From Deltaproteobacteria bacterium (lineage in GTDB: Bacteria > Desulfobacterota > Binatia > HRBIN30 > JACQVA1), in NCBI GenBank assembly GCA_016178705.1, contig JACOST010000027.1:1-64000 (forward strand): a DNA stretch of 64,000 nucleotides, read 5' to 3'. Shown here piece by piece: positions 6,537-60,481 of the stretch. Every line of letters begins with the position of its first letter. Position 1 is the first letter of the stretch. The notes below the pieces were generated by a model, which worked only from the letters and a program-made list of their open reading frames with translations, searched no databases and was not told the DNA's origin. The translations under genes and the position numbers were made by a program.

Positions 6537-7532
6537 GTGAACCGGACCGCGCGCGCCGCGCTAGCCTCTGGTGCCCTTCTCGCGTGTGCCGCCATGGTGG
6601 TTGCGCAAAGCGGCGGCGCGTACACGTTGTCATGGTTCACCGTGGACGCGGGGGGTGGCACGAGCAACGGAGGCAGTTATGCGGTCGGCGGCACCGTCGG
6701 GCAACATGATGCGGGACTACTGAGCGGCGGCACGTATGCCGTTGGCGGCGGCTTCTGGTTTGGCATCCCGACGGGTGCTGTCCCGACGCCAACCAATACC
6801 TTCACACACACCGCAACGGTTACGCGGACGCGCACGCGCACCGGTACGCCGACGGCGACATCGACGTACACACCGATATTCACGCCGACGCGCACTCACA
6901 GCGCGACGCGGACAGCGACGCGGACCAGGACGGCCACGGCAACCCTCGTTTCAACCAACACACCGACGAGCGCCGCGACCGCGACGTCAACTCGCACGCC
7001 GACCCATACGCAGACCCGAACCGTGAGGGAGACACAAACGGCTACGCTCACGCCAACCCGAACCAATGTGCCCACAGCACCACCAACCGTCGCGCCCAAC
7101 ACCCCGACACCGACGGCCACCGCGACCGCAACGGCGACCACGGTCCCCACCCATACGCCGACTGACACCGCACCCATCACGCCAACCGCAACGGCATCGG
7201 GTACCGCCACGCTGGTCGCCAGCGCTTCGCCCACCGCGGCGACACCGACCACACCCGCCACTCACACACCGATGCGAACCGCGACGGCGTCTCCCTCCGC
7301 GACCACCGAACCAACGCCATCGCCTACGCCGAGCGCCACGGCCACCATCGCGACTGTCCGCGGCGATGCCAACTGCGATGGTCGCGTCGGCGCGGCGGAT
7401 CACACCGCGCTCCGCCTCCAGATCGTGAGCGGACAACGGGCCGTGTGCGGAGGCGATGACGTCAACGCTGACGGCGTCGTCGACAGCGCGGACATTGCGC
7501 CGCTCACCCAAGCGATATTCGCGGAGCGCTAG
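6537..7532 (+). CDS. secreted protein with Thr/Pro-rich linker and dockerin-like calcium repeats
   Basis: 331 residues from a GTG start. A signal peptide ([18 protein letters not shown]) is followed by a short glycine-rich module with two SGGxYAVGG-type units. A linker of roughly 180 residues made of Thr, Pro, Ala, Arg comes next. The C-terminal pair of loops, [12 protein letters not shown] and [12 protein letters not shown], matches type I dockerin calcium-binding repeats. Such a layout suggests an exported protein whose C-terminus docks or anchors. No cohesin is visible in the window. It lies 46 bases after the fibre-like gene and 206 bases before the NHL protein, so the three may be co-expressed. 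Confidence 0.7.
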
Positions 7533-7738
7533 GAGTGCTACAGGGACTTCGCGAAGGAATGGCGGAAGCGGTCAGCTTGGGGCGCGCGCACGAGCGGCCC
7601 GTTTTCCGCCTCGGAGTCGCGGTTGCAAGGAAGTGGGCTGATGGCGTGCGCAGCCGGCTCGATATCTCGGCGGGGTGTCCCGCATCTCCGCGCGTGCGTT
7701 TGACAGGCGGGCAAAGGTCAAGATACTTCGCCGCGACG

Positions 7739-19472: not shown

Positions 19473-21602
19473 TCACTTGCCCATGCGCGTTAGTTGTCCC
19501 GCGTCGAATAAGGCGGTGTCGACCGGGACGCGGCGATCGAACGGCGACTTCGGAGTCAACTTCGCTCCAGCGAGCGTGGCGCGGTGCATCTTGAAGTTCT
19601 CCGCCAACGCCCAGGCCTGTGTCGAAGCCGGAACGGTTTCGTCGTCCGGTCTGGGGCCGGTCGCCTGGTTGATGCGTGCGATGACGTGATACGTCAACAC
19701 GTGCTCGCCCGACCACGCGAACTTCTGGTGATATGACCCGTCCCAGGTTTCGGCGTCGATCCACAACACGACACGGCCATACAGATAGTACTTGTCGCGC
19801 GGCTTACCCTCGATGATCCAGATCGGTCGGCGTGCGAGCCCGGCTTCAGTTGGTGCCCAGGGCAAGCCCTGCCACCCGTCGGTCTGGTAGCCGTAGTACC
19901 CTTGGCGGTTAGTGAGAACCTCCCAGCCGCCACTCGCAACCTGGCGCGGCTTGACCTGATGCGCGGCTGAATCGGGGTCGACGATGCGCAGCCCTTCGCG
20001 CTGTTCGACCACGCGCCATTCGAAGTCCTCCGGCTTGCCATCAAAAAAATAGCCGTCGTCGGCGGAGATGTCCGACCCGAGATAACCATCCGAGCGGTTG
20101 GCCGGGCTGACCGCGCGCACGCGGCGCAACGCCGGAATAAACGCCCACTGCGAGTCGCGCTTGTTGGGGTCGCGGTAACGCCACCCCAACGCGGCGGTGC
20201 CCTGCAGGTCACTCGGACTCAATGCCAAGGCGAGAGTCTGGGACTGCAGATCCTGCGGGTTGTCAGTGCGGTACTTGGTGGGTTCGCCATCGTAGAACTT
20301 GAACCATCCTTCCGCGCCGAGTTCACGCTCAACACCCTTGCGATTAAACATGATCAGCTTCGTGTTTGTGTGAGCGCTGCCGCCGTACCAAACGGCGAGG
20401 AACTGGTTCCAGACAATCTTGACTCCCGCCTGCGGATCCTTGGGGTCGATGTCGGGAAACGGGATACCGTAAATGTAGGCCGGTTGCTGCCCGGTAGTGC
20501 GGTCGACGATCGTTCCGCGGTCGTTGACGGTCAGCGTCTGCGCGTTGTGCTTCGTAGCGTCAACAAAGCTCTGTTCCCAGATCTGGCCTCCGAGTGGATA
20601 CGATACGATTCGGTTAACGTATTCACCCTGCTCGTAGTGACGCAGGAGTTCCTCCGGTAGCATGCCCTTGGCGAGATCCGCGCTCGATTTGTCGAGGACG
20701 TCGCCGACCTGCAAGCCGCCGCTTGCGCCGCTTCGGGCGCGTGGGGCGGCGGCGGGCGCGACGGGAGCGGGAGCGCTGACTTCGGGCTCCGTCGTGGGAG
20801 TGGCTGGCGCTGGCTGCGCCGTTGCCGTCGCCACGGCGGGCGCGGCCGCCGGAGCGGCGGCCGGTGCTGGCTCGATTGGTTCGGCCGCAACTGGCGCTGT
20901 TGGTGCCGCGGTCGGCGGAGCGGGTCGTGCGGTCGGGGGTGCAGGCTTAGGCGGCTCCGGCGCACGTGGTGCCGGCGGCGGTTCACTCGCCGGCGCGGCG
21001 GCCGCTACTTGTGCCGCGGGTGCCGGCGCCGCCGGTGCGGGTGCAACAGGTGCGGGTGCTGCGAGTACAGGCGCGGCGGGTACAGGCGCCACAGGTGCGG
21101 CCGTTGCGGTACTCGGGCCGACGAGCACTGCGCTGCGAGCCCAGATCCAGCCCTGCTGACCGTTTGCGGTTTGCACGTGATAGTAGCCGCCCTGCGGCGC
21201 GGGTTCGAGCAGCTTGAGTGGCTCGGACGCTTGCACCAAGCGCACCGGCGCCTCTTGCGTCGACGGGCTCGATCGTAGGTTCGTGCTCGACAGTAGCTTG
21301 AGCGTCTTCCCCACACCGGCGGTGCCGCCGGTAGCGAGATTGAGGTTGCGAGCCCATGCCCAGCCTTCCTCGCCGCGCGCCGTGCGCACTTTGTAGTAGC
21401 CGCTCTCAAATTCGAGCCCGACGAGTTCGACATGCTCACCGCGCGCGAGCACACGCAACGGTGCGCGTGCCATCGATGGCTCCGGACGCAAGTTCGATCC
21501 GCGCTCTACCGTGGCGGATTGCGCCGTTGCCGATCCGGTTGAGAGGAGGAGACACAAGAGCGCTTGCATCAAGATCGCGGATATCGAGCCCAGTAACTTC
21601 AT
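19473..21602 (-). CDS. exported SH3b-DUF1329 protein, copy 1
   Basis: 709 residues. The signal MKLLGSISAILMQALLCLLL...ATAQ is preceded by AAAGGGGAAAA, so this ATG is chosen over one ten codons earlier. Two bacterial SH3 modules follow (SNLRPEPSMARAPLRVLARGE and TNLRSSPSTQEAPVRLVQAS, each ending in GWAWAR or GWIWAR). A linker of about 120 residues is almost only Ala and Pro. DUF1329 begins at LQVGDVLDKSSADLAKGMLP and runs to the end (TALFDAGQLTRMGK). DUF1329 proteins are envelope proteins of the LolA/LppX-like type, often with lipid- or steroid-degrading or RND-export genes; SH3b modules suggest peptidoglycan binding. The combination is unusual. Confidence 0.8.
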   Translation of the reverse strand: MKLLGSISAILMQALLCLLLSTGSATAQSATVERGSNLRPEPSMARAPLRVLARGEHVELVGLEFESGYYKVRTARGEEGWAWARNLNLATGGTAGVGKTLKLLSSTNLRSSPSTQEAPVRLVQASEPLKLLEPAPQGGYYHVQTANGQQGWIWARSAVLVGPSTATAAPVAPVPAAPVLAAPAPVAPAPAAPAPAAQVAAAAPASEPPPAPRAPEPPKPAPPTARPAPPTAAPTAPVAAEPIEPAPAAAPAAAPAVATATAQPAPATPTTEPEVSAPAPVAPAAAPRARSGASGGLQVGDVLDKSSADLAKGMLPEELLRHYEQGEYVNRIVSYPLGGQIWEQSFVDATKHNAQTLTVNDRGTIVDRTTGQQPAYIYGIPFPDIDPKDPQAGVKIVWNQFLAVWYGGSAHTNTKLIMFNRKGVERELGAEGWFKFYDGEPTKYRTDNPQDLQSQTLALALSPSDLQGTAALGWRYRDPNKRDSQWAFIPALRRVRAVSPANRSDGYLGSDISADDGYFFDGKPEDFEWRVVEQREGLRIVDPDSAAHQVKPRQVASGGWEVLTNRQGYYGYQTDGWQGLPWAPTEAGLARRPIWIIEGKPRDKYYLYGRVVLWIDAETWDGSYHQKFAWSGEHVLTYHVIARINQATGPRPDDETVPASTQAWALAENFKMHRATLAGAKLTPKSPFDRRVPVDTALFDAGQLTRMGK

Positions 21603-21735
21603 GGAATTTTCCCCTTTCGCTGGTCCGACCATTTTCGGCCGCCCCTACGCCGAGTCGGCCCCGACACGGCGCAGCACTAGTCAGACAGCAAGGCACGCGC
21701 CAAGGCTTCTTGCCCTGACGTATCTGCTCCGCACT

Positions 21736-21887: not shown

Positions 21888-23867
21888 TCACTTGCCCATA
21901 CGCGTCAGCTGTCCCGCATCGAACAGGGCCGTGTCGACGGGGATGCGTCGATCGTACGGGGCCTTCGAATTCAATCGGGCTCCGGCCATCGAGGCGCGAT
22001 GCATCTTGAAGTTCTCTGCCACCACCCAGGCCTGGGTGGCGGTTGCGATGATCTCGTCGTTGGGCGCGGTGCCGGTCGTCTGGTTGACGTGCCCGAGGAC
22101 CTGGTAGGTCAGCACGTGCTCGCCGTTCCAGCTAAACTTCTGGTGGTACGAGCCGTCCCAGGTTTCGGCGTCGATCCACAGCACCACGCGACCGTAGAGG
22201 TAGTACTTGTCATGTGGCTTGCCTTCGATGACCCAAAGCGGCCGGCGCGCCAGGCCACCTTCGGGCAGCGCCCACGGTAGGCCGGTCCAACCATCGGTCT
22301 GGTAGCCGTAGTATCCGTCGCGATTTGTAAGCACCTCCCAACCGCCGCCGGCAATTGGCCGCGGCTTGATTTGATGTGCCGCAGCCGCCGGATCGACCAC
22401 GCGCAACCCTTCACGCCGGTCGACGACGCGCCATTCGAACTCTTCCGGTTTGCCGTCGAAGAAGTTGCCGTCGTCGGCGTCGATGTCCGACCCGAGGTAA
22501 CCGTCCGAACGATTCGCTGGGCTGACAGCTCGTACGCGCCGCAGCGCGGGAACGAACGCCCACTGCGAGTCCCGCTTGTTGGGGTCGCGATACCGCCATG
22601 ACAGCGCCGCGGTTCCCTGCATGTCGCTCGGACTCAACGCGAACGCAAGGAACTGTGACTGCAGATCTTGCGGGTTGTCCGTGCGATACTTCGCTGACTC
22701 GCCGTCGTAAAACTTGAACCACGCCTCTGCGGCAAGCTCTCGCTCGACGCGATTGGCGCTCAGCATGATCATCTTCGTTCTCTGGTGAACGCTGCCGTTG
22801 TACCAGACGCCGAAGAACTGATTCCACACGACCTTGACGCCAGCGTGCGGGTCATTGGCGTCGATGTCGGGGAAGGGGATCCCGTAGACGTATGGGGGTT
22901 GCTGACCGGTGGTGCGGTCGATGATCGTTCCGCGGTCGTTGACCGTCAGCGTCTGTGCGTTGTGCTTGGTGGCGTCGACGAAACTCTGTTCCCAGATCTG
23001 ACCCCCCAACGGATACGGAACAATTCGATTCTCGTACTCGCCCTGCTCGTAGTGACGCAGGAGTTCCTCCGGCAACATTCCTTTGGCGAGTTGTGCGGTC
23101 GACTTGTTCAAGACGTCGCCGACTTGCAGACTCCCTGTGGTCTCCTTTTGGGCGCGTGGGGCGGGGACGGGTGCCGCGGGGGCGCTGACGGCCGGTTGCG
23201 TTGTCGGCGTGGCGGGCGCCGTGGTTGGCGCAGCGAGGCGTGCAGTCGGTGGTGCAGGCATAGGCGGCTCCGCTACGCGTGGTGCCGGCGGCGGTTCACT
23301 TGCCGGTGCGGCGGCCGCGACTTGTGCGGCGGGTGCCGGCGCGACCGGCGCCGCAGGTAGCGCGGCCACGGCGGTACTTGCGCCGACGAGCACCGCGCTC
23401 CGGGCCCAGATCCAGCCCCGCTCACCGTCTGCAGTTTGAACATGGTAGTAGCCGCTCTGCGGCGCGGGTTCGAGCAGTTTCACCGGCTCGGACGCTTGCA
23501 CCAAACGCACCGGGGCCTCCTGGGTCGATGGACTCGACCGCAGGTTCGTGCTCGACAGCAGCTTGAGCGTCTTCCCCGCACTGGCCGTGCCGCCGGTGGC
23601 GATGGTGAGGTTGCGAGCCCACGCCCAGCCTTGCTCGCCGCGTGCCGTGCGCACTTTGTAGTAGCCGCTTTCAAATTCGAGTCCGACGAGTTCAACGCTC
23701 TCGCCGCGCGCGAGCACCCGCAGCGGTGCCCGCGTCATCGATGGCTCCGGGCGTAAATTCGATCCACGCTCGACCGTAGCGGATTGCGCAAAGGCTGACC
23801 CCGTTGATAGGATCACGCACAGAGACGCTTGTATGACTATCGTAGATATCGAGCTGGAGAACTTCAT
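21888..23867 (-). CDS. exported SH3b-DUF1329 protein, copy 2
   Basis: 659 residues, a close paralogue of copy 1 with the same order: signal peptide (MKFSSSISTIVIQASLCVIL), two SH3b modules, Ala/Pro linker, DUF1329. The linker is about 50 residues shorter, which explains the length difference. DUF1329 itself is nearly collinear, beginning LQVGDVLNKSTAQLAKGMLP and ending in the same TALFDAGQLTRMGK. The length change confined to the linker argues for slippage in a low-complexity stretch after duplication. Divergent from the small exported protein, with which it may share a control region. Confidence 0.8.
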   Translation of the reverse strand: MKFSSSISTIVIQASLCVILSTGSAFAQSATVERGSNLRPEPSMTRAPLRVLARGESVELVGLEFESGYYKVRTARGEQGWAWARNLTIATGGTASAGKTLKLLSSTNLRSSPSTQEAPVRLVQASEPVKLLEPAPQSGYYHVQTADGERGWIWARSAVLVGASTAVAALPAAPVAPAPAAQVAAAAPASEPPPAPRVAEPPMPAPPTARLAAPTTAPATPTTQPAVSAPAAPVPAPRAQKETTGSLQVGDVLNKSTAQLAKGMLPEELLRHYEQGEYENRIVPYPLGGQIWEQSFVDATKHNAQTLTVNDRGTIIDRTTGQQPPYVYGIPFPDIDANDPHAGVKVVWNQFFGVWYNGSVHQRTKMIMLSANRVERELAAEAWFKFYDGESAKYRTDNPQDLQSQFLAFALSPSDMQGTAALSWRYRDPNKRDSQWAFVPALRRVRAVSPANRSDGYLGSDIDADDGNFFDGKPEEFEWRVVDRREGLRVVDPAAAAHQIKPRPIAGGGWEVLTNRDGYYGYQTDGWTGLPWALPEGGLARRPLWVIEGKPHDKYYLYGRVVLWIDAETWDGSYHQKFSWNGEHVLTYQVLGHVNQTTGTAPNDEIIATATQAWVVAENFKMHRASMAGARLNSKAPYDRRIPVDTALFDAGQLTRMGK

Positions 23868-25435: not shown

Positions 25436-25528
25436 AGCCGGCCTCCTGGGAAGCGACAGCGACATTGACAGCCCCCGCCACGGCGGATACGAACAAGCGT
25501 TAGTTTCGTGAGGACGGGGGACAGGCCG

Positions 25529-26254
25529 ATGCCACAGAACGTTCCGGAGTTTCAATTCAGCGACGATGCGCTGAAGCTGCGCCAATGCGTGTACGAGCAT
25601 TGGTGCGCGCGTGGCCATGGGCCGAATCTGCGTAGCGCGCACGAGGCCACTGGATTGTCGCGCGCGCAAATCCTCGAAGCGTACAAGCAACTCGATCTCG
25701 GCATCATGTGCATCGTCGATCAGGAGACGCAGAATTTCAATCTACTCAAGGCGCCACCGTTTTCCAGCTATCCGAGCCAGGCGCAGATTTTCCTCGACGG
25801 CAAGTTTCACTGTTACGCCGGCTGCGCGATGGAGTCGCTGGCCATGTGCATGATGCCGCCGCTCGCCGGCAAGGAACTGCGTATCGAAGGCTATTGCGCC
25901 TGTTGCCTGCAAGCGATCACCGCGATCACCAAGGACGGTGAAACGCTTTCGCACTCGCCCGCCACACTGATGATCCATGTGAGCCTGAGCCCACGCGAGT
26001 GGAACAAGACCAACATCGTGCCGATGTGCGACGCGATGAACTTTGTGCTGAACCCGGAGCACGCGATTGCGTACGAGAAGCAGATGGGCCGTCGCGGTGT
26101 CCTGTTCAGCATGGAGCAGGCGCGCAAGTTCATCACCGGCACCGGCAAGGCGCGGATGTGGCAGTACGACCGCATCCCCGACTACATGCGTCCGCAACGC
26201 ATCATCGACGGCATCCGTGCCTTGGGTGTGGACGTGAGCGGTTGGGGCGAGTGA
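25529..26254 (+). CDS. alkylmercury lyase (MerB)-like protein
   Basis: 241 residues. The N-terminal 75 residues form a winged-helix-like part (ATGLSRAQILEAYKQLDLG). The C-terminal part has the MerB core. C99 in YAGCAMESL occupies the position of the first catalytic Cys, and C167 in PMCDAM that of the second. The third acid, Asp in characterised MerB (three residues after the first Cys), is Glu102 here. A CACC cluster (residues 123-126) sits near the structural Cys117. No merR, merA or merT is nearby; its neighbours are an SDR and luciferase-like oxidoreductases. It may cleave another carbon-heteroatom bond. Start ATG chosen over a GTG seven codons earlier because GGGGG lies eight bases before it. 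Confidence 0.7.
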   Translation: MPQNVPEFQFSDDALKLRQCVYEHWCARGHGPNLRSAHEATGLSRAQILEAYKQLDLGIMCIVDQETQNFNLLKAPPFSSYPSQAQIFLDGKFHCYAGCAMESLAMCMMPPLAGKELRIEGYCACCLQAITAITKDGETLSHSPATLMIHVSLSPREWNKTNIVPMCDAMNFVLNPEHAIAYEKQMGRRGVLFSMEQARKFITGTGKARMWQYDRIPDYMRPQRIIDGIRALGVDVSGWGE

Positions 26255-33017: not shown

Positions 33018-33731
33018 ATGCAACTGAATGTCCGTGACGTGTCGGATCTCTTCAAGGTTTCGGAGAAGACCGTCTATCGCTGGATCAATCAAGGGATCTT
33101 GCCCGCCTACCGCGTGAACGATCAGTACCGCTTCAACCGTGCCGAGTTGTTGGAGTGGGCGACGTCCCGCAAGATGAATGTCTCAGCCGAGCTGTTCGAT
33201 GAGCCGGAGAGCGATGCGACGCCCGTTCCTGGACTCGTCGAAGCACTGCAGGCAGGCGGGATTTTCTACCGCGTCGGCGGCATCGACAAGGAGTCGGCGC
33301 TGCGCGGCCTGGTCGAGCACATGCGGTTGCCCGACGAGGTGGATCGCGAGTTCGTCTGGCGCGTGTTGCTGGCGCGGGAGCGCCTGCAGTCGACCGGTCT
33401 CGGCGAGGGCATCGCCATTCCCCATGTGCGCAACCCGATCGTGTTGCACGTATCCCGCCCGACAATCACGCTGTGCTTCTTGGAGCGTCCGGTCGAGTTC
33501 GAGGCTTTGGACGGCAAGCCTGTTTTCGCGCTGTTCTCATTGGTCTGTCCAACCGTGCGCGCGCATCTGCGCCTACTGTCGCGCTTGGCCTTTGCGCTCA
33601 ACGACTCCGGATTCAAAACGGCCGTCCTTCGCCAGGGCTCGCGGGACGAGATCCTTAACGAGGCTCGTCGGGTCGAGGCGACGGTTTCATCCAGCGCAGC
33701 GAACGGCGGCAAGTCTACCAAGCGGGAATAG
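33018..33731 (+). CDS. helix-turn-helix/PTS-EIIA regulator heading the Ehr operon
   Basis: 237 residues. Residues 1-50 are an excisionase/MerR-type winged helix (VRDVSDLFKVSEKTVYRWIN...GILPAYRVNDQYRF). Residues 68-215 are a PTS fructose/nitrogen-type EIIA domain; GEGIAIPHVRNP carries the phosphorylatable His136. No other PTS protein lies in the window. The stop codon abuts the start of the HyfB-like gene without a gap, so it belongs to that operon. It could couple operon expression to the cell's phosphoenolpyruvate or nitrogen-PTS state. Confidence 0.8.
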   Translation: MQLNVRDVSDLFKVSEKTVYRWINQGILPAYRVNDQYRFNRAELLEWATSRKMNVSAELFDEPESDATPVPGLVEALQAGGIFYRVGGIDKESALRGLVEHMRLPDEVDREFVWRVLLARERLQSTGLGEGIAIPHVRNPIVLHVSRPTITLCFLERPVEFEALDGKPVFALFSLVCPTVRAHLRLLSRLAFALNDSGFKTAVLRQGSRDEILNEARRVEATVSSSAANGGKSTKRE

Positions 33732-35708
33732 ATGCTCCTCCTGCTTGGCGCGACAGTTGTCCTAGTCGCCAGTGGCGCTGTTGCGCTCCTGACCCAGCGG
33801 TCGCCGTGGCGATGCAACGTCATCGGCGCGAGTGGTGCTGTCGCCGGATGTCTGCTTGGTTTGCTACCGGCCTCGCGCGTATTGCTCGGCGCTTCTAGCT
33901 CTTCGCTGCGGCTATCCTGGGAAGTTCCCGGTGGGGCGTTCTTCGTCCAGTTGGACGCGCTGTCGGCGTTCTTTCTCATCCCGATCCTTGGGTTGTCGGC
34001 TCTCGCCGCCGTGTACGGCAGTGAGTATCTGTGGGCCTACCAGCAAAAGAAGTGGCTGGGGCCGCCGTGGTTTTTTTTCAATCTTCTGGTGGCCAGCATG
34101 GTGCTGGTTGTCATCGCTCACAACGGAGTGCTCTTTCTGGTGGCTTGGGAGGTGATGGCACTCGCCTCGTTCTTTCTGGTGACTTTCGACGACGAAGCCG
34201 AAGAAGTCCGCGCTGCGGGCTGGACCTATCTGGTCGCGACGCATCAGGGCACCGCCTTCTTGCTCGCCTTCTTCGTGTTGGCGGGGCGGGCAAGCGGCTC
34301 GCTTGATTTTGATCGCTTGAGCGCCACGCCCGCCGAGGCGAGTATTCTGTTTCTTCTAGCGGTAGTCGGCTTCGGTACCAAGGCGGGCTTCGTGCCGTTC
34401 CACGTCTGGCTACCGGAGGCGCATCCGGCTGCGCCGAGTCACGTGTCCGCGGTGATGTCCGGCGTGATGATCAAGACCGGCATCTACGGCTTGATGCGCA
34501 TGCTCACGATCCTCGGTCCGCCACCGGTGTGGTGGGGATGGGTGCTCTGCGGGATCGGATTGTCGTCGGGGATCTTCGGAGTGCTCTTCGCGCTGGCACA
34601 GAACGACCTCAAGCGTCTGCTCGCGTACTCGAGTGTGGAGAACGTCGGCGTCATCGCACTCGGTCTCGGTGTTGGTGTCTTGGGACTCAGCAGCGGCGAT
34701 CCGACGCTGACCGTGCTGGGATTCGCCGGCGCTCTTTTGCACGTCGCGAACCACGCCGCCTTCAAAGGGTTGCTGTTCCTCGGTGCGGGGGCCGTCGCGC
34801 ATGCGACCGGTACGCGCGAGATCAACCGCCTCGGTGGCCTGCTGAAGCGGATGCCGTGGAGCGGCGCCGCGTTCTTAACTGGCGCAGTGGCTATCTGCGG
34901 TTTGCCACCGCTCAACGGTTTCGTGAGCGAGTGGTTGATCTACCTGGGAGCCTTTCACGGGGCGATCTCACCGGGTCGGACGCCCGCCCTTCCCGTTCTC
35001 GCTGTCATTGGCGGACTGGCGCTGATTGGGGGACTGGCTGCCGCGTGCTTCACCAAGGCGTTTGGGATCGTCTTCTTGGGCACGGCACGAACTGATCTGC
35101 CAGCGCGTGCGCACGAGCCGGGGCTTGCGATGCGAGTGCCGATGATGACGTTGGCGGCAGGCTGCGCGCTGGGCGGGTGCTTGGCGCCGTGGGTCGTTGG
35201 TGCGCTGGCGCCCGTGATCCAGAGCGCGACGGGTTTGTCCGCCGCGAGTGTGCGGGGTCCGCTGGTGGCGGCTACGACCCCGCTTCAATCCGTCGTAGTG
35301 GTCAGCCTCGGGCTGGTCGCCCTAGTCGCGCTGCTCACCGGCGTGCGGCGCTGGCTACTCTCGGATCGCCGCGTGGATGAAGGTCCGACGTGGGATTGCG
35401 GATACGCGCAGCCGTCAGCGCGCATGCAGTACACCGCTTCGTCCTTCGCCCAACCGTTGACGGATCTGTTTGATCTGTTGCTGCAGACACAGCGACGCGT
35501 TGAGACCCCCGCAGGCCTCTTCCCACGCGACGCGTCGCTGATCACAGAGACGCCCGACGTCTGCACCGAGCGTCTGTACCAACCTGTCTTCGCGGGCATT
35601 GGTCGCGGTCTTTCGTCGCTGCGCTGGCTGCAACACGGGCGAGTGCATCTGTACGTGCTCTATATCGCGCTGACCTTATTGGTTCTGCTGATCTGGAAGC
35701 TTGGATAG
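33732..35708 (+). CDS. HyfB-like antiporter subunit (NuoL/MrpA family) of Ehr complex
   Basis: 658 residues, about 15-16 membrane segments. The conserved channel acids and lysines of antiporter-like subunits are present: Glu in VAWEVMALASF, Lys in GFGTKAGFVPFHVWLPEAHPA (in part) and NDLKRLLAYSS. The C-terminal EGPTWDCGYAQPSARMQYTA is the hallmark of hydrogenase-4 subunit B proteins and absent from NuoL. It pumps protons or sodium in the membrane arm. The operon continues with HyfC-like after three bases. Confidence 0.85.
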   Translation: MLLLLGATVVLVASGAVALLTQRSPWRCNVIGASGAVAGCLLGLLPASRVLLGASSSSLRLSWEVPGGAFFVQLDALSAFFLIPILGLSALAAVYGSEYLWAYQQKKWLGPPWFFFNLLVASMVLVVIAHNGVLFLVAWEVMALASFFLVTFDDEAEEVRAAGWTYLVATHQGTAFLLAFFVLAGRASGSLDFDRLSATPAEASILFLLAVVGFGTKAGFVPFHVWLPEAHPAAPSHVSAVMSGVMIKTGIYGLMRMLTILGPPPVWWGWVLCGIGLSSGIFGVLFALAQNDLKRLLAYSSVENVGVIALGLGVGVLGLSSGDPTLTVLGFAGALLHVANHAAFKGLLFLGAGAVAHATGTREINRLGGLLKRMPWSGAAFLTGAVAICGLPPLNGFVSEWLIYLGAFHGAISPGRTPALPVLAVIGGLALIGGLAAACFTKAFGIVFLGTARTDLPARAHEPGLAMRVPMMTLAAGCALGGCLAPWVVGALAPVIQSATGLSAASVRGPLVAATTPLQSVVVVSLGLVALVALLTGVRRWLLSDRRVDEGPTWDCGYAQPSARMQYTASSFAQPLTDLFDLLLQTQRRVETPAGLFPRDASLITETPDVCTERLYQPVFAGIGRGLSSLRWLQHGRVHLYVLYIALTLLVLLIWKLG

Positions 35709-35711
35709 TCG

Positions 35712-36635
35712 ATGATGATCACGGCGCTGAGCCACTCGTTCCTGCACATGCTCCTGCCGTTGGCCTTGGCGCCGCTGTTGCTCAGCGTCATCAACCGCAC
35801 GAAGGCGATCGTCGCCGGGCGCAACGGACAAGTCTTGCTGCAACCGTACTACGACTTGGCGAAGTTGTTGCGGAAGGGCGCGGTGTACAGCCACACAACG
35901 ACGTGGGTGTTTCGAGCTGGGCCGGTGGTCGGTCTCGCGGCAGTGATTGTCGCCACTACTCTTGTCCCGTTCGGTGGAGCATCTGCGGCCGTCTCCTTCG
36001 CGGGTGATCTGATCTTGTTCGCCTATCTGTTGGGCTTGCTGCGATTCGTTACTGTCATCGCCGCGCTCGACACCGGTTCGAGCTTCGAGGGCATGGGCGC
36101 GAGCCGTGAGGTGACTTTCTCTGCCCTAGCTGAGCCGGCGCTGCTCCTTGCGCTTGCCGCAGTGGCCCGACAGACGGGGAGTCTCTCTCTCACGACGATG
36201 TACGCGGGAGTCACCGGTGCGACTTGGACGCATGCTGCTCCGGTGTTCGCTTTGGTGGCGGGCGCGTTGATGGTGGTGTTTCTGACCGAGAATGCGCGCA
36301 TGCCGGTAGACGATCCCACCACTCACTTAGAGTTGACGATGATCCACGAGGTGATGGTGCTCGATCATAGCGGGCCCGACCTGGCGTTCATTGTGTACGG
36401 TAGTGCGTTGAAGCTGTGGGTACTCGGAGTGCTGCTGGTCGGCTTGGTGGTGCCTATTCACAGCGGCAACGCATGGGCTGACAGCATCGTCGGGTTTGCC
36501 GGCTTGCTCGGTCTTGCGGTCGTGACCGGAATCATCGAATCCTCGATGGCTCGTTGGCGACTGACGCGCGTGCCGCAATTGCTGGTGGGAGCGTGTGTGC
36601 TGTCCACGCTTGCGCTGGTCCTCATGCTGAGATGA
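35712..36635 (+). CDS. HyfC-like subunit (NuoH family)
   Basis: 307 residues, eight membrane segments. NGQVLLQPYYDLAKLLRKG and TENARMPVDDPTTHLELTMIHE (in part) are the classic NuoH/HyfC signatures, with the acidic residues that form the link between the quinone/NiFe module and the pumps. This subunit anchors the peripheral arm. Standard length for HyfC. Tightly spaced on both sides. Confidence 0.9.
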   Translation: MMITALSHSFLHMLLPLALAPLLLSVINRTKAIVAGRNGQVLLQPYYDLAKLLRKGAVYSHTTTWVFRAGPVVGLAAVIVATTLVPFGGASAAVSFAGDLILFAYLLGLLRFVTVIAALDTGSSFEGMGASREVTFSALAEPALLLALAAVARQTGSLSLTTMYAGVTGATWTHAAPVFALVAGALMVVFLTENARMPVDDPTTHLELTMIHEVMVLDHSGPDLAFIVYGSALKLWVLGVLLVGLVVPIHSGNAWADSIVGFAGLLGLAVVTGIIESSMARWRLTRVPQLLVGACVLSTLALVLMLR

Positions 36636-36639
36636 TCGC

Positions 36640-37293
36640 ATGACCGGTTGGGTTGACACGGCGCTGGTGCTCCTGACGCTGACGAGTCTGTTGCTGCTCG
36701 GTTCGAGCCGACTGACGCGGTGCATTCGCATCGTTGCGTTCCAAGGGGTGGTCCTCGGTGTGCTGACAGTGACGGCGCGTCCAACCGAGCTCTCGCTACG
36801 CATCCTGATGCTGGCGGCGGCGATCGTCGGCTTGAAGGGTGTGACGTTCCCGTGGCTGTTGTCGCGCGTGCTGCGTGACGCCGCGGTGCGTCGGGAGGTT
36901 GACCCCGTGGTCGGCTACATCGGCTCGCTGCTGCTCGGTACGTTGATGCTGGCGGTTTCCTTCTGGTTGAGCGCGCGGCTGCCGCTCCCCATGCCCGCGA
37001 TCTCCGGCTTGCTCGTTCCGGTGGCACTGTTTACGACGCTAGCGGGGCTCTTCCTGATCGTGACGCGGCGCACGGCGCTCACGCAGGTACTGGCGTATCT
37101 GGTGCTTGAGAACGGCATCTATGTATTCGGTGTCGGCGTGGTGCAGGGGACGCCGATGCTCGTCGAGCTCGGTGTTCTCCTCGATGTCTTCGTTGTGGTG
37201 TTCGTCATGGGCATCGCCATCTTTCACATCAACCGGGAATTCGATCACATCGATACGGACCAACTCACAGCGCTCAAGGACTGGACGGCATGA
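36640..37293 (+). CDS. HyfE-like subunit (NuoK-type)
   Basis: 217 residues, six membrane segments. The second half (LVPVALFTTLAGLFLIVTRR and LVLENGIYVFGVG) is the NuoK/MnhC-like part with a membrane-embedded Glu. The first half corresponds to the N-terminal extension of HyfE. The stop overlaps the next start by four bases (ATGA), implying translational coupling. Confidence 0.85.
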   Translation: MTGWVDTALVLLTLTSLLLLGSSRLTRCIRIVAFQGVVLGVLTVTARPTELSLRILMLAAAIVGLKGVTFPWLLSRVLRDAAVRREVDPVVGYIGSLLLGTLMLAVSFWLSARLPLPMPAISGLLVPVALFTTLAGLFLIVTRRTALTQVLAYLVLENGIYVFGVGVVQGTPMLVELGVLLDVFVVVFVMGIAIFHINREFDHIDTDQLTALKDWTA

Positions 37294-38765
37294 TGCTCTT
37301 GGCGCTGCTGCTGATTCCAACGCTGGGCGCGGTCGCGGCGTATTTCATCACCCATCACACGGTGCGTCGGACGTTGTTGGTGGCAACGGCGGTGGCCCAC
37401 GCGGCAACCGTCACGGCGACCTGGGTGGCGCCGCCGGCGGCAATCTGGGGCGGTTGGTTGCAGTTGGATGCGCTCGGAGGCTTGTTCTTGAGCATCACCA
37501 GCGGGTTGTTCCTAGCGGCGGCGCTGTACAGCGTTGGTTACCTGGGTCGCGAGAATTCGGAGGCCCGACGAGACTTCGAGGAAGGCCTCTTGTTCGCCAA
37601 TGCGCCTGAAGCCACGTTTACGAGTTGTCTGTTGCTCTTTCTCGCTGCGATGACACTGGTGGCCGTCAGCCACCGGTTTGGTTTGCTGTGGGTGGCGATC
37701 GAGATGACCACGCTGGCGAGCGCGCCGCTGATCTATTTTCATCGTCATCACCGCTCCCTCGAAGCGACGTGGAAGTACTTGCTCATCTGCTCCGTCGGCA
37801 TCGCGCTGGCTTTGCTTGGTAATTTTTTTCTCGCCGTGGCGGCGTCCGATCACGGGGGTCAACCGATCCCGTTGGTGCTAAGCGAGTTGATCGGACGCGC
37901 GAGTGAACTGCACGTTGCGTGGCTCAAGGCAGCGTTCCTGCTCCTGCTCGTGGGTTACGGCACGAAGATGGGATTGGCGCCAATGCACACGTGGCTTCCC
38001 GATGCCCACAGCGAAGCGCCATCGGTGGTCTCGGCGTTACTGTCCGGAGCGCTGCTGAACTGTGCGTTCCTCGGTATCTTGCGAGTGCAACAAGTGTGCG
38101 TTGCGGCGGGGCAGGGCGCCTTCGGTCAGGACCTGCTCGTCGGCTTCGGCCTGCTCTCCATGGCGGTCGCCGCAGCCTTCATTGTCGGCCAGTCGGACTA
38201 CAAGCGCATGCTCGCGTACTCGAGTGTCGAACACATGGGGCTGCTGGCGTTGGGCGTTGGGCTTGGTGGAGTCGCGACGTTCGGGGCGCTGTTGCACGCC
38301 GTCAATCACTCGCTGACCAAAGCCATGCTGTTTCTAGTTGCGGGCAACATCTTGGCCGCCTATCAATCGAAGTCGACGGCTGATGTTCGCGGTGTGCTGC
38401 GCGTGTTGCCGGCATCCGGAGTGTTGTGGGTGATCGGTTTTCTGGCGATCACTGGCACGCCGCCCTTCGGTCTCTTCGTCAGTGAGTTCACGATCCTGAG
38501 GGGTGCCTTCGATCAAGGCCGGAACGCAGTCGCTGTTGCGTACCTGGCGCTCTTAGCGGTTGTCTTTGTGGGCATGGCGAGCACGGTACTGCGGATGGCG
38601 CAGGGTGCGCCGGGCGGCCGCGAGCAAAACCCGCTGCCGGCCCGCGAGCCGGCGTTGGCTATCGTGTCGCCGGCGATTCTCGCGCTGCTGGTCCTTGTCC
38701 TGGGGCTCTACATTCCCCCGCTTGTGCGTCACGCGATCTTGGAAGCCGCTCGCGCACTGGGATGA
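37290..38765 (+). CDS. HyfF-like antiporter subunit (NuoM/NuoN family)
   Basis: 491 residues, about 14 membrane segments. Key features: Glu in WVAIEMTTLASAPL, Lys in GYGTKMGLAPMHTWLPDAHSE (in part), and DYKRMLAYSSVEHMGLLALG. A second antiporter-like pump in the same operon gives two pumping modules, as in hydrogenase-4 and unlike simple Ech hydrogenases. It overlaps both the preceding and following genes by four bases. Confidence 0.9.
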   Translation: MMLLALLLIPTLGAVAAYFITHHTVRRTLLVATAVAHAATVTATWVAPPAAIWGGWLQLDALGGLFLSITSGLFLAAALYSVGYLGRENSEARRDFEEGLLFANAPEATFTSCLLLFLAAMTLVAVSHRFGLLWVAIEMTTLASAPLIYFHRHHRSLEATWKYLLICSVGIALALLGNFFLAVAASDHGGQPIPLVLSELIGRASELHVAWLKAAFLLLLVGYGTKMGLAPMHTWLPDAHSEAPSVVSALLSGALLNCAFLGILRVQQVCVAAGQGAFGQDLLVGFGLLSMAVAAAFIVGQSDYKRMLAYSSVEHMGLLALGVGLGGVATFGALLHAVNHSLTKAMLFLVAGNILAAYQSKSTADVRGVLRVLPASGVLWVIGFLAITGTPPFGLFVSEFTILRGAFDQGRNAVAVAYLALLAVVFVGMASTVLRMAQGAPGGREQNPLPAREPALAIVSPAILALLVLVLGLYIPPLVRHAILEAARALG

Positions 38766-40294
38766 TCCCCATGTCTAGCCGTGAACTGAGCCTCTCGATT
38801 CGCAACGGTGTGGCCATCGGCGTGTCGGACATCCCCAAACTAACTATCGGAGAATTTAGAGACTCGGTGATTGATGGGGTTGCAGATGGTGGTCGCATCG
38901 CAGCGTTGTTCGGCCGTCCCGTTGGTGAACGGGTCGGACTTGTCGCCGTCCTGGCTCACCACGGTAGCGGAACTCTGTCGCTGTGCAGCGCCGAAGTCGG
39001 CGATCCCTATCCATCCCTGACACCGGATTGCCCCCAGGCGCACTGGTTTGAGCGCGAACTCGCCGAGCAGTGGAACGTGCAGCCGCAGGGTCACCCGTGG
39101 CTGAAGCCGATTCGCTTTCACCGGTCCTACCGGAACGATCAAGCGGCCCGAGTGGGCTCGAACGCGAACGGGATCCTACCGAGCGTCACCGATTTCTTCC
39201 AGGTACGGGGCGAGGAGGTGCATGAAGTGGCCGTCGGGCCGGTGCATGCGGGTATCATCGAGCCGGGACATTTCCGATTCCAGTGCCACGGCGAGCAGGT
39301 GCTCCATCTTAAAGTTTCGTTGGGCTATCAACACCGCGGTGTCGAGCATGCGCTGATAAACGGGCCGACCAAACGGACGATTCATTATATGGAGACCCTC
39401 GCCGGCGACACCTCCGTCGGCCATGCAACGGCCTACTGCGAGGCGGTGGAGGCACTGGCCGGCAGTCGCGTTCCTGCGCGGGCACAGGTGCTGCGCGGAG
39501 TGGCGCTCGAACTCGAACGCCTCGCCAATCACACCGGCGACCTGGGCGCGCTCGCCGGGGACATCGGCTATCTACCGACGGCCGCCTATTGCGGGCGCAT
39601 TCGGGGCGACTTTCTGAACCTGACTGCGCTGATCTGTGGCAATCGTTTTGGTCGTGGACTCATCCGCCCTGGCGGCGTGGCGTTCGATGTCGACGACGAT
39701 CGCGTCGCTCAGCTGTTGCAACGTTTGGAGGCGGCATTGACGGACGTAACGACTGCGGTCCGTCTGCTTTGGGAGACGCCATCGGTTCCGGCGCGCTTCG
39801 AAGCGACCGGCCTCGTCTCGCGCGCGGATTGCGAGGCGCTGGGTTTGGTCGGTCCGGTGGCGCGTGCGTGCGGCGTCGAGCGCGACGTGCGCCAGGAATT
39901 CCCCTCCGGCATCTTCCGCTTTGCGCAGATTCCCGTTTCGACGTGGCAGAGCGGCGACGTGTTCGCGCGCGCCTACGTGCGGTGGCTCGAGATTCAGCGG
40001 TCAGTGGCGTTCATCCGTGAGCAACTTGCCATGCTGCACGGCGCGCCGACGCGTGTAGAGGTGGGGCCACTCGCTGCGAACCGACTCGTGGTTTCGCTCG
40101 TCGAAGGTTGGCGCGGTGAGATCTGTCACGTCGCGGTGACCAATGTGAGTGGCCGCTTCGCACACTACAAGGTGGTCGATCCGTCGTTCCACAACTGGAT
40201 GGGCTTGGCGATCGCGTTGCGCGGCCAGCAGATCTCGGACTTTCCGCTGTGCAACAAGAGTTTCAATCTCTCGTACTGTGGGCATGATCTGTAA
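38762..40294 (+). CDS. HyfG-like subunit (fused NuoC-NuoD) without [NiFe] ligands
   Basis: 510 residues. Residues 1-150 are the NuoC-like 30-kDa part, the rest the NuoD/hydrogenase large-subunit part (GPVHAGIIEPGHFRFQ, YQHRGVEHALI). In true hydrogenases CxxC motifs near both ends bind nickel and iron. Here the first site reads ETLAGDTSVGH (residues 211-221) and the last reads DPSFHNW (residues 473-479), so none of the four cysteines remains. As in complex I NuoD, the protein cannot carry a NiFe site. The substrate, possibly a quinone or another carrier, is unknown. An ATG three codons downstream is an alternative start. Confidence 0.85.
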   Translation: MIPMSSRELSLSIRNGVAIGVSDIPKLTIGEFRDSVIDGVADGGRIAALFGRPVGERVGLVAVLAHHGSGTLSLCSAEVGDPYPSLTPDCPQAHWFERELAEQWNVQPQGHPWLKPIRFHRSYRNDQAARVGSNANGILPSVTDFFQVRGEEVHEVAVGPVHAGIIEPGHFRFQCHGEQVLHLKVSLGYQHRGVEHALINGPTKRTIHYMETLAGDTSVGHATAYCEAVEALAGSRVPARAQVLRGVALELERLANHTGDLGALAGDIGYLPTAAYCGRIRGDFLNLTALICGNRFGRGLIRPGGVAFDVDDDRVAQLLQRLEAALTDVTTAVRLLWETPSVPARFEATGLVSRADCEALGLVGPVARACGVERDVRQEFPSGIFRFAQIPVSTWQSGDVFARAYVRWLEIQRSVAFIREQLAMLHGAPTRVEVGPLAANRLVVSLVEGWRGEICHVAVTNVSGRFAHYKVVDPSFHNWMGLAIALRGQQISDFPLCNKSFNLSYCGHDL

Positions 40295-40303
40295 GGAACA
40301 ACC

Positions 40304-41062
40304 GTGTTGAGAGCTCTGCTCGCGCGCCTGCAACAAGGCCATCGCACCATTTCGTTCCCGCATGGTGAACCTTCACTGCCAGACCGGTTTCGCGGCCTGC
40401 CCGTGGTCGATCAGGCGAAGTGCCGCGATGGCTGCCGTGCCTGTGCCGAAGTGTGCCCGACGGATGCAATCGCGGCAGACGAGCACGGCGTGCGAATCGA
40501 TCTCGGCCGTTGCCTGTTCTGCACGGAGTGCCGTGACGCGTGCCCCGACGGTGCGATGCAGTACACGGCAGAGTATCGACTCGCGCAACGGACGCGCGAC
40601 GATCTGGTGCTCACGGGTGAGACGCTGAAGCGCGCGCAAGCGCTCGGCGCCGAGAGCCGGCGGCTGTTCGGTCGCTCGCTCAAGCTGCGCCAGGTCAGCG
40701 CCGGCGGCTGCAACGGCTGCGAGTCTGATGTCAACGTGCTCAACACCGTGGTCTTCGATCTCGGCCGCTTCGGCATCCAGTTCGTTGCCTCGCCGCGCCA
40801 CGCGGATGGGTTGCTGATCACGGGGCCGGTCACGGAGAACATGCAACTGGCGCTGCACAAGACCTACGATGCCGTCCCGTCACCGAAGCTCGTGATTGCG
40901 GTCGGCGCCTGCGCCATCTCCGGAGGCCCCTATCGCGATCACGTTGAGGTGCACAATGGCGCCGACAGCGTGGTGCCGGTTGATCTCTACGTGCCGGGCT
41001 GTCCGCCGCACCCGCTCACGATTCTGGACGGACTGCTGCGGCTGCTCGGGCGGATCACGTAG
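40304..41062 (+). CDS. ferredoxin-NuoB/HyfI fusion subunit of Ehr complex
   Basis: 252 residues. Residues 36-90 hold two [4Fe-4S] sites: C40-C44-C47-C51 and C70-C73-C76-C80 (HyfH/NuoI-like). Residues 125-250 are the small subunit, with the proximal-cluster ligands C136, C139 (GGCNGCES), C203 (GACAISGG) and C233 (PGCPPHP). In most relatives these are two genes. All iron-sulfur ligands are intact even though the NiFe ligands of its partner are lost, so electron transfer is probably retained. Last gene of the operon; its end overlaps by eight bases the convergent MFS gene. Confidence 0.9.
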   Translation: MLRALLARLQQGHRTISFPHGEPSLPDRFRGLPVVDQAKCRDGCRACAEVCPTDAIAADEHGVRIDLGRCLFCTECRDACPDGAMQYTAEYRLAQRTRDDLVLTGETLKRAQALGAESRRLFGRSLKLRQVSAGGCNGCESDVNVLNTVVFDLGRFGIQFVASPRHADGLLITGPVTENMQLALHKTYDAVPSPKLVIAVGACAISGGPYRDHVEVHNGADSVVPVDLYVPGCPPHPLTILDGLLRLLGRIT

Positions 41063-59089: not shown

Positions 59090-60481
59090 ATGCAGTTAGC
59101 CAAGACCATCCAGCCCCTGTTGGACGACGCGTTTCACGAACTCAACGTGAAGTTTGAAGAGAGCTTGCGGCGGAAAAGCGCGGACTTGACCCGCAGGGGC
59201 CTGGCGTCGAGTGGGGTCGCCATTCGCCCGATCGAGCAGGAATTCGAGCGCGACACGCGCGAACGACAACACGCATTCTTAGCAGTGGTGAAGAAGTGCC
59301 TAGCGTTGCCGGCAACTCAGCGATTTTCCCGAACCGAGCTGCTGGAATACCTGCGAGAGTTCGCAGTGAGATCTTTGGGGGCCCAGATCGATGCGCAGGA
59401 GGGCAGGTTGCGCAAACATGCCCAAAGCATCCTGTCTTCGTACCCTCTCAACGGCACGAAGCTTGGCCGTGAGCGCGTGCTGCGCGCGGTCACGGCCGAA
59501 CTGGAGACCATGGTTGCCGCGGCAGACACGTCCATTCAAGGTGACAGGACCTTGGGTCAAACCGACAAAGCTGCGGACCCTGTCAGCAAGAGCATTCACG
59601 TCCGGGACTTGGCTCGCGAGTTGATCAAGGACATCGAAGACAGTCGGCTCCCTCCGGAATCAATCGTGCTCAAGGCCTCGCGCCTCGCCCAGATGTCCAA
59701 TGCTCCCGAGAACACGAAACACTGGCTGACGTGTGAACAACGCGGCTACAACCTCCAAGAGGCGGTTTCGCGCGAGTACCTCACGCACACACGGCGTTGG
59801 ATCGATCCCATCAACAACAAGGCCCGCTGGGGCCCGCTCGGTGCCTGCGATGCTGAGATCAGTGCTCACGAACGGAGGCTTGCGGGCGTCGCGCCACACA
59901 ACGTTGCAGAAGCGCGCGAGCACATAGGTGCGATCTCGCATCTCCGCACTATACGGACCACGGTCTTGGCGCTGATCCACAGTTTCGCAGCAGGCCTCTA
60001 CTACGAGAGTGTCTTCAGCGGCATGGCAGAGAGCATATTCGAACAGCGGAAGGAGGAGGTTGATGCGCTTCTCGCAGCTCGTTGTGCGGATGCCCTAGAG
60101 AAAGTCGCTTCCATCTGTGACCGGTTGGCAGAGGGTAATCGAGAGGCCGTCAGTCAGGCGCTGATTACGTGTCGGCGAATGATCGACGATTTCGCAGACT
60201 CCGTGTATCCCGCGTCCGACAAGACCGTTGAAGTCGAGGGTAACGAGGTGAAATTGGACGCGAAGCATGCTCTGAATCGTCTCAATCAGTACGTGCGCGA
60301 GAAGACCTCGAGCCACTCGAGGCGAACTCGCATCCGCCAAACACTGACCAACCTGTATGACCGCGTTTGCGCAGGGGTGCACGATGAGGTCACCGCGGAG
60401 GAAGCGCGGTGCCTCTTTCTCGACACGTACTTGACCTTGGGCGAGATCCTGACACTCCGAGACCGCGACGAGACACACTGA
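59090..60481 (+). CDS. AbiTii-domain protein (candidate abortive-infection protein)
   Basis: 463 residues. Residues 1-165 are helical and charged, without known match. Residues 176-222 match the AbiTii pattern: ELIKDIEDSRLPPESIVLKA, then RLAQMSNAPENTKHWLTCEQ and RGYN. A C-terminal helical domain ends CAGVHDEVTAEEARCLFLDT and YLTLGEIL, the typical finish of AbiTii proteins with a conserved His/Glu that may be a nuclease site. AbiTii occurs in phage-resistance loci. Lower GC than the neighbouring cstA, suggesting recent acquisition. Confidence 0.7.
   Translation: MQLAKTIQPLLDDAFHELNVKFEESLRRKSADLTRRGLASSGVAIRPIEQEFERDTRERQHAFLAVVKKCLALPATQRFSRTELLEYLREFAVRSLGAQIDAQEGRLRKHAQSILSSYPLNGTKLGRERVLRAVTAELETMVAAADTSIQGDRTLGQTDKAADPVSKSIHVRDLARELIKDIEDSRLPPESIVLKASRLAQMSNAPENTKHWLTCEQRGYNLQEAVSREYLTHTRRWIDPINNKARWGPLGACDAEISAHERRLAGVAPHNVAEAREHIGAISHLRTIRTTVLALIHSFAAGLYYESVFSGMAESIFEQRKEEVDALLAARCADALEKVASICDRLAEGNREAVSQALITCRRMIDDFADSVYPASDKTVEVEGNEVKLDAKHALNRLNQYVREKTSSHSRRTRIRQTLTNLYDRVCAGVHDEVTAEEARCLFLDTYLTLGEILTLRDRDETH

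Follow-up and report, generated by a model that had tools for sequence, protein, structure and literature searches.

What does a hydrogenase-4-like membrane complex do once its large subunit has lost the cysteines that hold the NiFe site? The question is raised by an operon in a 64,000-nucleotide stretch of contig JACOST010000027.1 from a Deltaproteobacteria bacterium of the class Binatia (assembly GCA_016178705.1); this whole stretch is referred to below as the window. A first-pass annotation, made from the sequence alone, had described a gene pair at 38762–41062 as part of an energy-converting-hydrogenase-related (Ehr) ion pump without a NiFe site, probably fed by ferredoxin. Our data place the complex securely in the known Ehr family, and we favour, with moderate confidence, a ferredoxin-driven ion pump with a putative acceptor in a remodelled pocket.

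The operon consists of seven tightly packed genes on the plus strand (33018–41062), in the order: a regulator joining a helix-turn-helix (HTH) domain to an EIIA domain of the phosphotransferase system (PTS), HyfB, HyfC, HyfE, HyfF, the HyfG-like large subunit EhrL, and EhrS, a fusion of a 2×[4Fe-4S] ferredoxin domain to a HyfI-like small subunit. The EhrL and EhrS genes and their coordinates stand as first given; however, the operon itself starts upstream of that interval, at the regulator gene at 33018. The best relatives of known structure are E. coli HycE for EhrL (E = 1.7e-44) and HycG for EhrS (E = 1.3e-32), both far beyond chance.

The alignment with HycE shows the loss of all four NiFe-ligand cysteines. 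HycE C241GIC244 corresponds to EhrL A214GDT217, as the first-pass annotation had it, and D529PCYSC534 corresponds to N502LSYCG507, with C531 replaced by S504 and C534 by G507. The DPSF tetrapeptide, which had been taken for the second motif, aligns instead with non-ligand residues (AATY in HycE and APSF in Thermus Nqo4) about 30 residues upstream of the ligand site; the loss of the ligands is upheld despite this misplacement. Among 101 EhrL sequences, the first ligand position is occupied by A (85), S (11), V (1) or a retained cysteine (4), the second by T (83), S (14) or another residue (4), the third by S (100) or N (1), and the fourth by G in all 101. EhrL ends at L510, aligned with HycE R537, and the C-terminal tail of HycE beyond that point is absent.

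In the host genome (6.1 Mb, 98% complete), neither HypD nor a NiFe large subunit (PF00374) was found by searches that were positive in control genomes; a NiFe(CN)2CO site is therefore not to be expected there, and the complex cannot produce or use H2. This also rules out a true hydrogenase whose cysteines are supplied by another gene. Of the marks of a group 4 [NiFe] hydrogenase, the four cysteine ligands are missing from the complex and HypD from the host, while two marks of Ehr are present: the large subunit is without the NiFe CxxC motifs, and a single operon encodes Hyf-like membrane subunits together with an iron-sulfur small subunit.

A tree of 65 sequences unites the EhrL proteins in one clade (100/100) apart from group 4 NiFe hydrogenases and NuoD, and the window EhrL falls in a 100/100 subclade with its Geobacter and Geomonas homologues, to which it is 57–58% identical. 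The host also carries ordinary complex I copies, and their NuoD proteins (at C32 and C6) group within the NuoD clade. Earlier papers describe Ehr complexes that lack the CxxC motifs and have no established function (PMC6349859; PMC10284858; PMC7894505). The phylogeny, the conserved operon order, the missing ligands, and a host without NiFe maturation all back the proposal of an Ehr-type complex without a NiFe site.

The operon is found in identical order, regulator first, in 11 genomes of the host's class; a twelfth genome (G043/L032) has a distant version of it, and G012 has a C-terminal EhrL piece only. The EhrL of a groundwater metagenome-assembled genome, also named Deltaproteobacteria bacterium (L045), is 74% identical to that of the window. 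A scan of GTDB genomes gave at least 575 confirmed relatives, the best 80 of which span at least 14 named phyla, and more distant Ehr operons occur on plasmids of aerobes, e.g., Rhizobium, Cupriavidus, Burkholderia, and Rhodococcus, several without the ferredoxin domain. Ehr complexes are widespread, have no established reaction, and represent one of the routes out of hydrogen chemistry taken within the complex I superfamily.

Several further observations concern these relatives. In four loci of aerobic proteobacteria (L039, L042, L043, and L044) the HyfI-like subunit has no ferredoxin domain and retains the cysteines of the proximal N2-type cluster. The plasmid operons of Variovorax (L037), Burkholderia (L039), and Rhodococcus (L040) lie near genes for spermidine synthase, CopG-type, and YjdM proteins, and Variovorax PBL-E5 has two Ehr-type operons side by side. 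Locus L033 encodes only the last ~146 residues of EhrL (7089–7619, 73% identical), either a remnant or the result of an assembly gap, with no other recognised operon genes in 13 kb. The HycE-like operon of M. tuberculosis is a candidate further relative.

The pocket left by the NiFe site is not degenerate in sequence: G215, D216 (100/101), N498, K499, S500, S504 (100/101), Y505, G507, and D509 are practically invariant among the 101 EhrL. The loop glutamate E167 (HycE E193), the canopy arginine R451 (HycE R478), and the proton-path residues H257, E410, and R368 are retained. In hydrogenases and complex I, the canopy holds an aspartate (HycE D529) that is described as strictly conserved and as important for quinone reduction (PMC9474812); EhrL has Asn502 in its place, and 98/101 sequences have Asn. 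The complex I quinone residues H38 and Y87 of Nqo4 correspond to I166 and to G215, which is invariant in all 101. As judged from these alignments, the EhrL pocket differs from those of all three characterised classes (hydrogenase, complex I, and the sulfane-sulfur reductase MBS of Pyrococcus) yet is strongly conserved; this implies that it serves a specific ligand or function. The AlphaFold2 model of EhrL (91 sequences; predicted local distance difference test score, pLDDT, 92.1, with loop 162–166 among the least certain parts) has the expected HycE/complex I fold, and its closest PDB match is E. coli HycE (7z0s_E, Z 46.4, 26% identity). A model of the G-I fusion (10 sequences, pLDDT 50) was set aside.

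The first-pass annotation was also right that all 12 iron-sulfur cysteines of EhrS are intact; 73 of the 99 aligned EhrS keep the full set. The N2 motif has hydrogenase-type CxxC spacing and is neither the adjacent pair of complex I nor the shortened three-ligand motif of MBS. The channel residues of HyfB (E140, K217, K248, K345, and E400) and HyfF (E138, K226, K344, and E399) and the acidic loop of HyfC are intact and conserved among ~100 homologues. The first-pass statement that the channel acids and lysines of both antiporter-like subunits are preserved thus holds with one exception: HyfF has Asn in place of the second lysine, and E. coli HyfF has the same substitution.

On this basis, reduced ferredoxin would dock at the 2×[4Fe-4S] domain of EhrS, and electrons would pass from cluster I to cluster II, then to the proximal N2-type cluster, and finally to an acceptor in the EhrL pocket that once held the NiFe site, a reaction that would drive H+ or Na+ through HyfC, HyfB, and HyfF. 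POR-type ferredoxin oxidoreductase domains (three split matches merged by hand) are more numerous in the Ehr-bearing genomes of the class than in the others (mean 3.7 versus 1.8, Mann–Whitney p = 5.6e-5, kinship ignored); the excess is clear in families f4 and f7, with little or none in f9, f11, and f12. This mildly supports ferredoxin as the donor that the first-pass annotation had proposed and that we infer here; the intact ferredoxin domain fits the same reading. A scan of the main open reading frames of the window revealed no gene for NuoE/F/G, FrhB, formate dehydrogenase, or another input protein, in agreement with the earlier claim that no input module is encoded nearby. The anaerobic ribonucleotide reductase, a marker of anaerobic life, is absent from all 58 relatives and therefore carries no information here. 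The Ehr complex of Geobacter is expressed, with the highest level on formate (PMC7894505).

A number of close relatives in the core family have lost ligands of the N2 cluster. At the positions of C136/C139/C203/C233, the planctomycetal EhrS L057 has N,E,E,W; L093 (Verrucomicrobiia) and L203 have S,E,E,W; L095 (Opitutae) has D,V,C,W; and L085 (Opitutaceae) has C,A,C,W, a partial loss. These proteins retain the flanking residues and the eight ferredoxin cysteines, and their operons retain the EhrL pocket (AGDT/NKSFNLSYCG, with AGDV in L093) and the pump residues, the HyfB of L095 being interrupted by a contig end. A search of the genomes of L057, L093, L095, and L085 for another close core EhrS that has N2 found none. 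The opitutal EhrS form a graded series of stepwise N2 loss; L057 stands outside it, its EhrS being closest (66%) to homologues of the window's own class. A single clade for all five N2-loss EhrS is rejected (approximately unbiased test, p = 0.018; the group was defined with the pattern already in view). The sequences thus support at least two losses of N2 in the core family, with near-identical replacements; the distant plasmid version from Allomeiothermus (L038) lacks N2 too, and when it is counted, the starred branches of the EhrL tree give three losses. In L049, L086, L092, and L094 only ferredoxin cluster I is lost, its ligands having gone together. We found no report of N2 loss in Ehr in the literature searched, which by itself does not prove novelty; a specialist would find the N2-less relatives, together with the linked EIIA regulator described below, new.

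Where N2 is absent, the wire to the pocket that we infer for the window complex is cut. The N2-less members would therefore have either another acceptor site or an Ehr function independent of pocket electrons, and, judging from their preserved pocket and pump, electron delivery to the pocket is no universal requirement of the family. This is one of several points that weigh against a ferredoxin-driven redox pump: no acceptor is known for Ehr, no biochemistry of the Ehr clade was found in the literature examined, and all-against-all clustering of 817 flanking open reading frames from ~100 loci gave no recurrent redox partner gene. The term "ion pump" in the first-pass annotation fits the conserved channel residues, which are its one basis; as a description, for the whole family, of a pump driven by electrons delivered to the old NiFe pocket, it is contradicted by the N2-less relatives. 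We tentatively keep in view, as an unlikely case, that the activity common to the Ehr family may not involve passing electrons to the old NiFe pocket at all, the pocket of the window complex serving a non-redox or differently wired reaction under PTS (EIIA) control. If so, the lineages that lost N2 but kept pocket and pump, and in which (N/S),E,E,W replacements arose near-convergently, would represent relatives of complex I in which no redox wire reaches the pocket.

The main rivals are a non-redox function and quinone reduction. On the former, which seems doubtful to us, the complex, or the activity shared by the family, would be an ion antiporter or another non-redox machine, with vestigial or sensory iron-sulfur clusters and a pocket serving coupling or substrate binding. 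The stepwise loss of N2, on two or more occasions within the core family, beside intact pocket motifs and channel residues speaks for this reading, as does the separate loss of ferredoxin clusters in other lineages; DabB is a precedent for a NuoL-like subunit able to work without redox chemistry. However, the window complex and most of the family keep all clusters, strongly conserved, so redox chemistry seems to matter here. A ferredoxin:quinone oxidoreductase, with quinone reduced in the equivalent pocket as in complex I, is in our view rather improbable. Complex I (NuoB/C/D/H/I/L/M) has a homologous core without NiFe and the same fold (49-kDa subunits, Z ~42–44), and the canopy arginine and the proton-path residues are shared; but its quinone His and Tyr and its canopy Asp are replaced in EhrL, its tandem NuoB cysteines give way to CxxC, and the window complex has no NADH module and lies outside the NuoD clade.

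Two further possibilities derive from characterised or proposed assemblies. Incorporation into a formate dehydrogenase–Ehr assembly, in which formate is oxidised to an acceptor not yet specified, has been proposed for Riflemargulisbacteria and Geobacter (PMC6349859; PMC7894505), and we consider it quite unlikely here, since neither a formate dehydrogenase gene nor one for a HycB-like linker occurs in the scanned window reading frames or recurs near the homologues. The E. coli formate hydrogenlyase FHL-1 (hydrogenase 3, Hyd-3; HycE, HycG, HycC, and HycD) and hydrogenase 4 (Hyd-4; Hyf) share with the window the CxxC-spaced proximal cluster, the loop glutamate, and the canopy arginine; unlike them, the window complex lacks the NiFe cysteines, the C-terminal extension used in protease maturation, formate dehydrogenase, and HyfA, has Asn for the canopy Asp, and belongs to a host without maturation genes. 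A sulfane-sulfur (polysulfide) reductase like Pyrococcus MBS is the least probable case, and very much so. MBS/Mbx is a NiFe-less, ferredoxin-fed relative in group 4, and MBS has been characterised (PMC7684303), but MBS depends on a non-cysteine iron in its proximal cluster, brought about by a three-cysteine motif that is three residues shorter (PMC7684303), whereas EhrS has CNGC, C203, and C233 intact; MBS also retains two NiFe cysteines that are absent in EhrL and lacks the loop glutamate that EhrL retains.

The closest known system is the Ehr of Geobacter sulfurreducens (GSU0739-0745), which we compared via Geobacter argillaceus (L081) and Geomonas limicola (L087). It belongs to the same 100/100 subclade, has the same gene set with a linked HTH-EIIA gene, and lacks the NiFe cysteines; it differs in that the Geobacteraceae loci have two HyfB-like genes and that L081 is without the cluster I ligands, all of which the window retains. 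The named pocket residues, the PTS-type regulator, and the natural N2-less variants make the question of a redox pump directly testable, the wild-type and naturally N2-less complexes being a matched pair for this purpose.

Across phyla, 53 of the 69 loci with sufficient sequence have an HTH-EIIA fusion within or beside the Ehr operon; among the 11 core homologues of the class, it is always the first operon gene. Its phospho-acceptor His is retained in 54/57 proteins. In a Verrucomicrobia-rich group it is divergent (24–31% identity) and in several loci stands between hyf genes. The host encodes EI and HPr; HPr is present in 57/58 relatives, so its co-occurrence with Ehr carries no information. 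The linkage, the retained His, and the presence of EI and HPr make PTS control plausible, and expression of the operon would probably be governed by HTH-EIIA phosphorylated by the PTS. No report of an EIIA–Ehr link was found in the literature searched, and novelty is not proven by that. HPr genes also lie near the plasmid Ehr operon in Burkholderia.

Table 1. Features of the Ehr operon (window coordinates).
Feature	Position	Strand	Basis
HTH_17 (excisionase/MerR-like) domain fused to PTS_EIIA_2; operon-linked regulator	33018..33731	+	Pfam
Phospho-acceptor His136 in the IPH motif of the HTH-EIIA protein	33423-33425	+	
HyfB-like antiporter subunit	33732..35708	+	NCBIfam hydrogenase 4 subunit B, E=5e-189; residue conservation
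HyfC/NuoH-like membrane anchor with acidic E-channel residues	35712..36635	+	PF00146; residue conservation
HyfE-like membrane subunit	36640..37293	+	NCBIfam hydrogenase 4 membrane subunit, E=4e-24, under curated cut-off; synteny
HyfF-like antiporter subunit	37290..38765	+	NCBIfam hydrogenase 4 subunit F, E=1e-107; residue conservation
EhrL (HyfG-like): NuoC-like N-domain and NuoD/hydrogenase-large-like domain without NiFe cysteines	38762..40294	+	
AGDT, EhrL 214-217, in place of hydrogenase CGIC	39401..39412	+	Alignment
DPSF, EhrL 473-476, conserved, not a NiFe motif	40178..40189	+	Alignment to HycE and Nqo4
NLSYCG, EhrL 502-507, true counterpart of hydrogenase DPCYSC	40265..40282	+	Alignment
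EhrS: N-terminal 2×[4Fe-4S] ferredoxin domain fused to HyfI/NuoB-like domain	40304..41062	+	Pfam, PDB matches
Eight cysteines of ferredoxin clusters I and II (C40, C44, C47, C51, C70, C73, C76, C80)	40421..40543	+	
CNGC, first two ligands (C136, C139) of the proximal N2-type cluster	40709..40720	+	Hydrogenase-type CxxC spacing
Remaining N2 ligand C203	40910-40912	+	
Remaining N2 ligand C233	41000-41002	+	

The group 4 NiFe hydrogenase genes of L129, L133, and L134 contain internal TGA codons, possibly encoding selenocysteine at a NiFe ligand. Elsewhere in the window, two adjacent paralogues on the minus strand (19473–21632 and 21888–23867) have SH3 and DUF1329/LolA-like domains, and a protein of the MerB-like (alkylmercury lyase) family (25508–26254) adjoins two luciferase-like monooxygenases. 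A 463-residue protein (59090–60481) has a short AbiTii match (E = 1.2e-9), possibly a domain of the phage-defence type.

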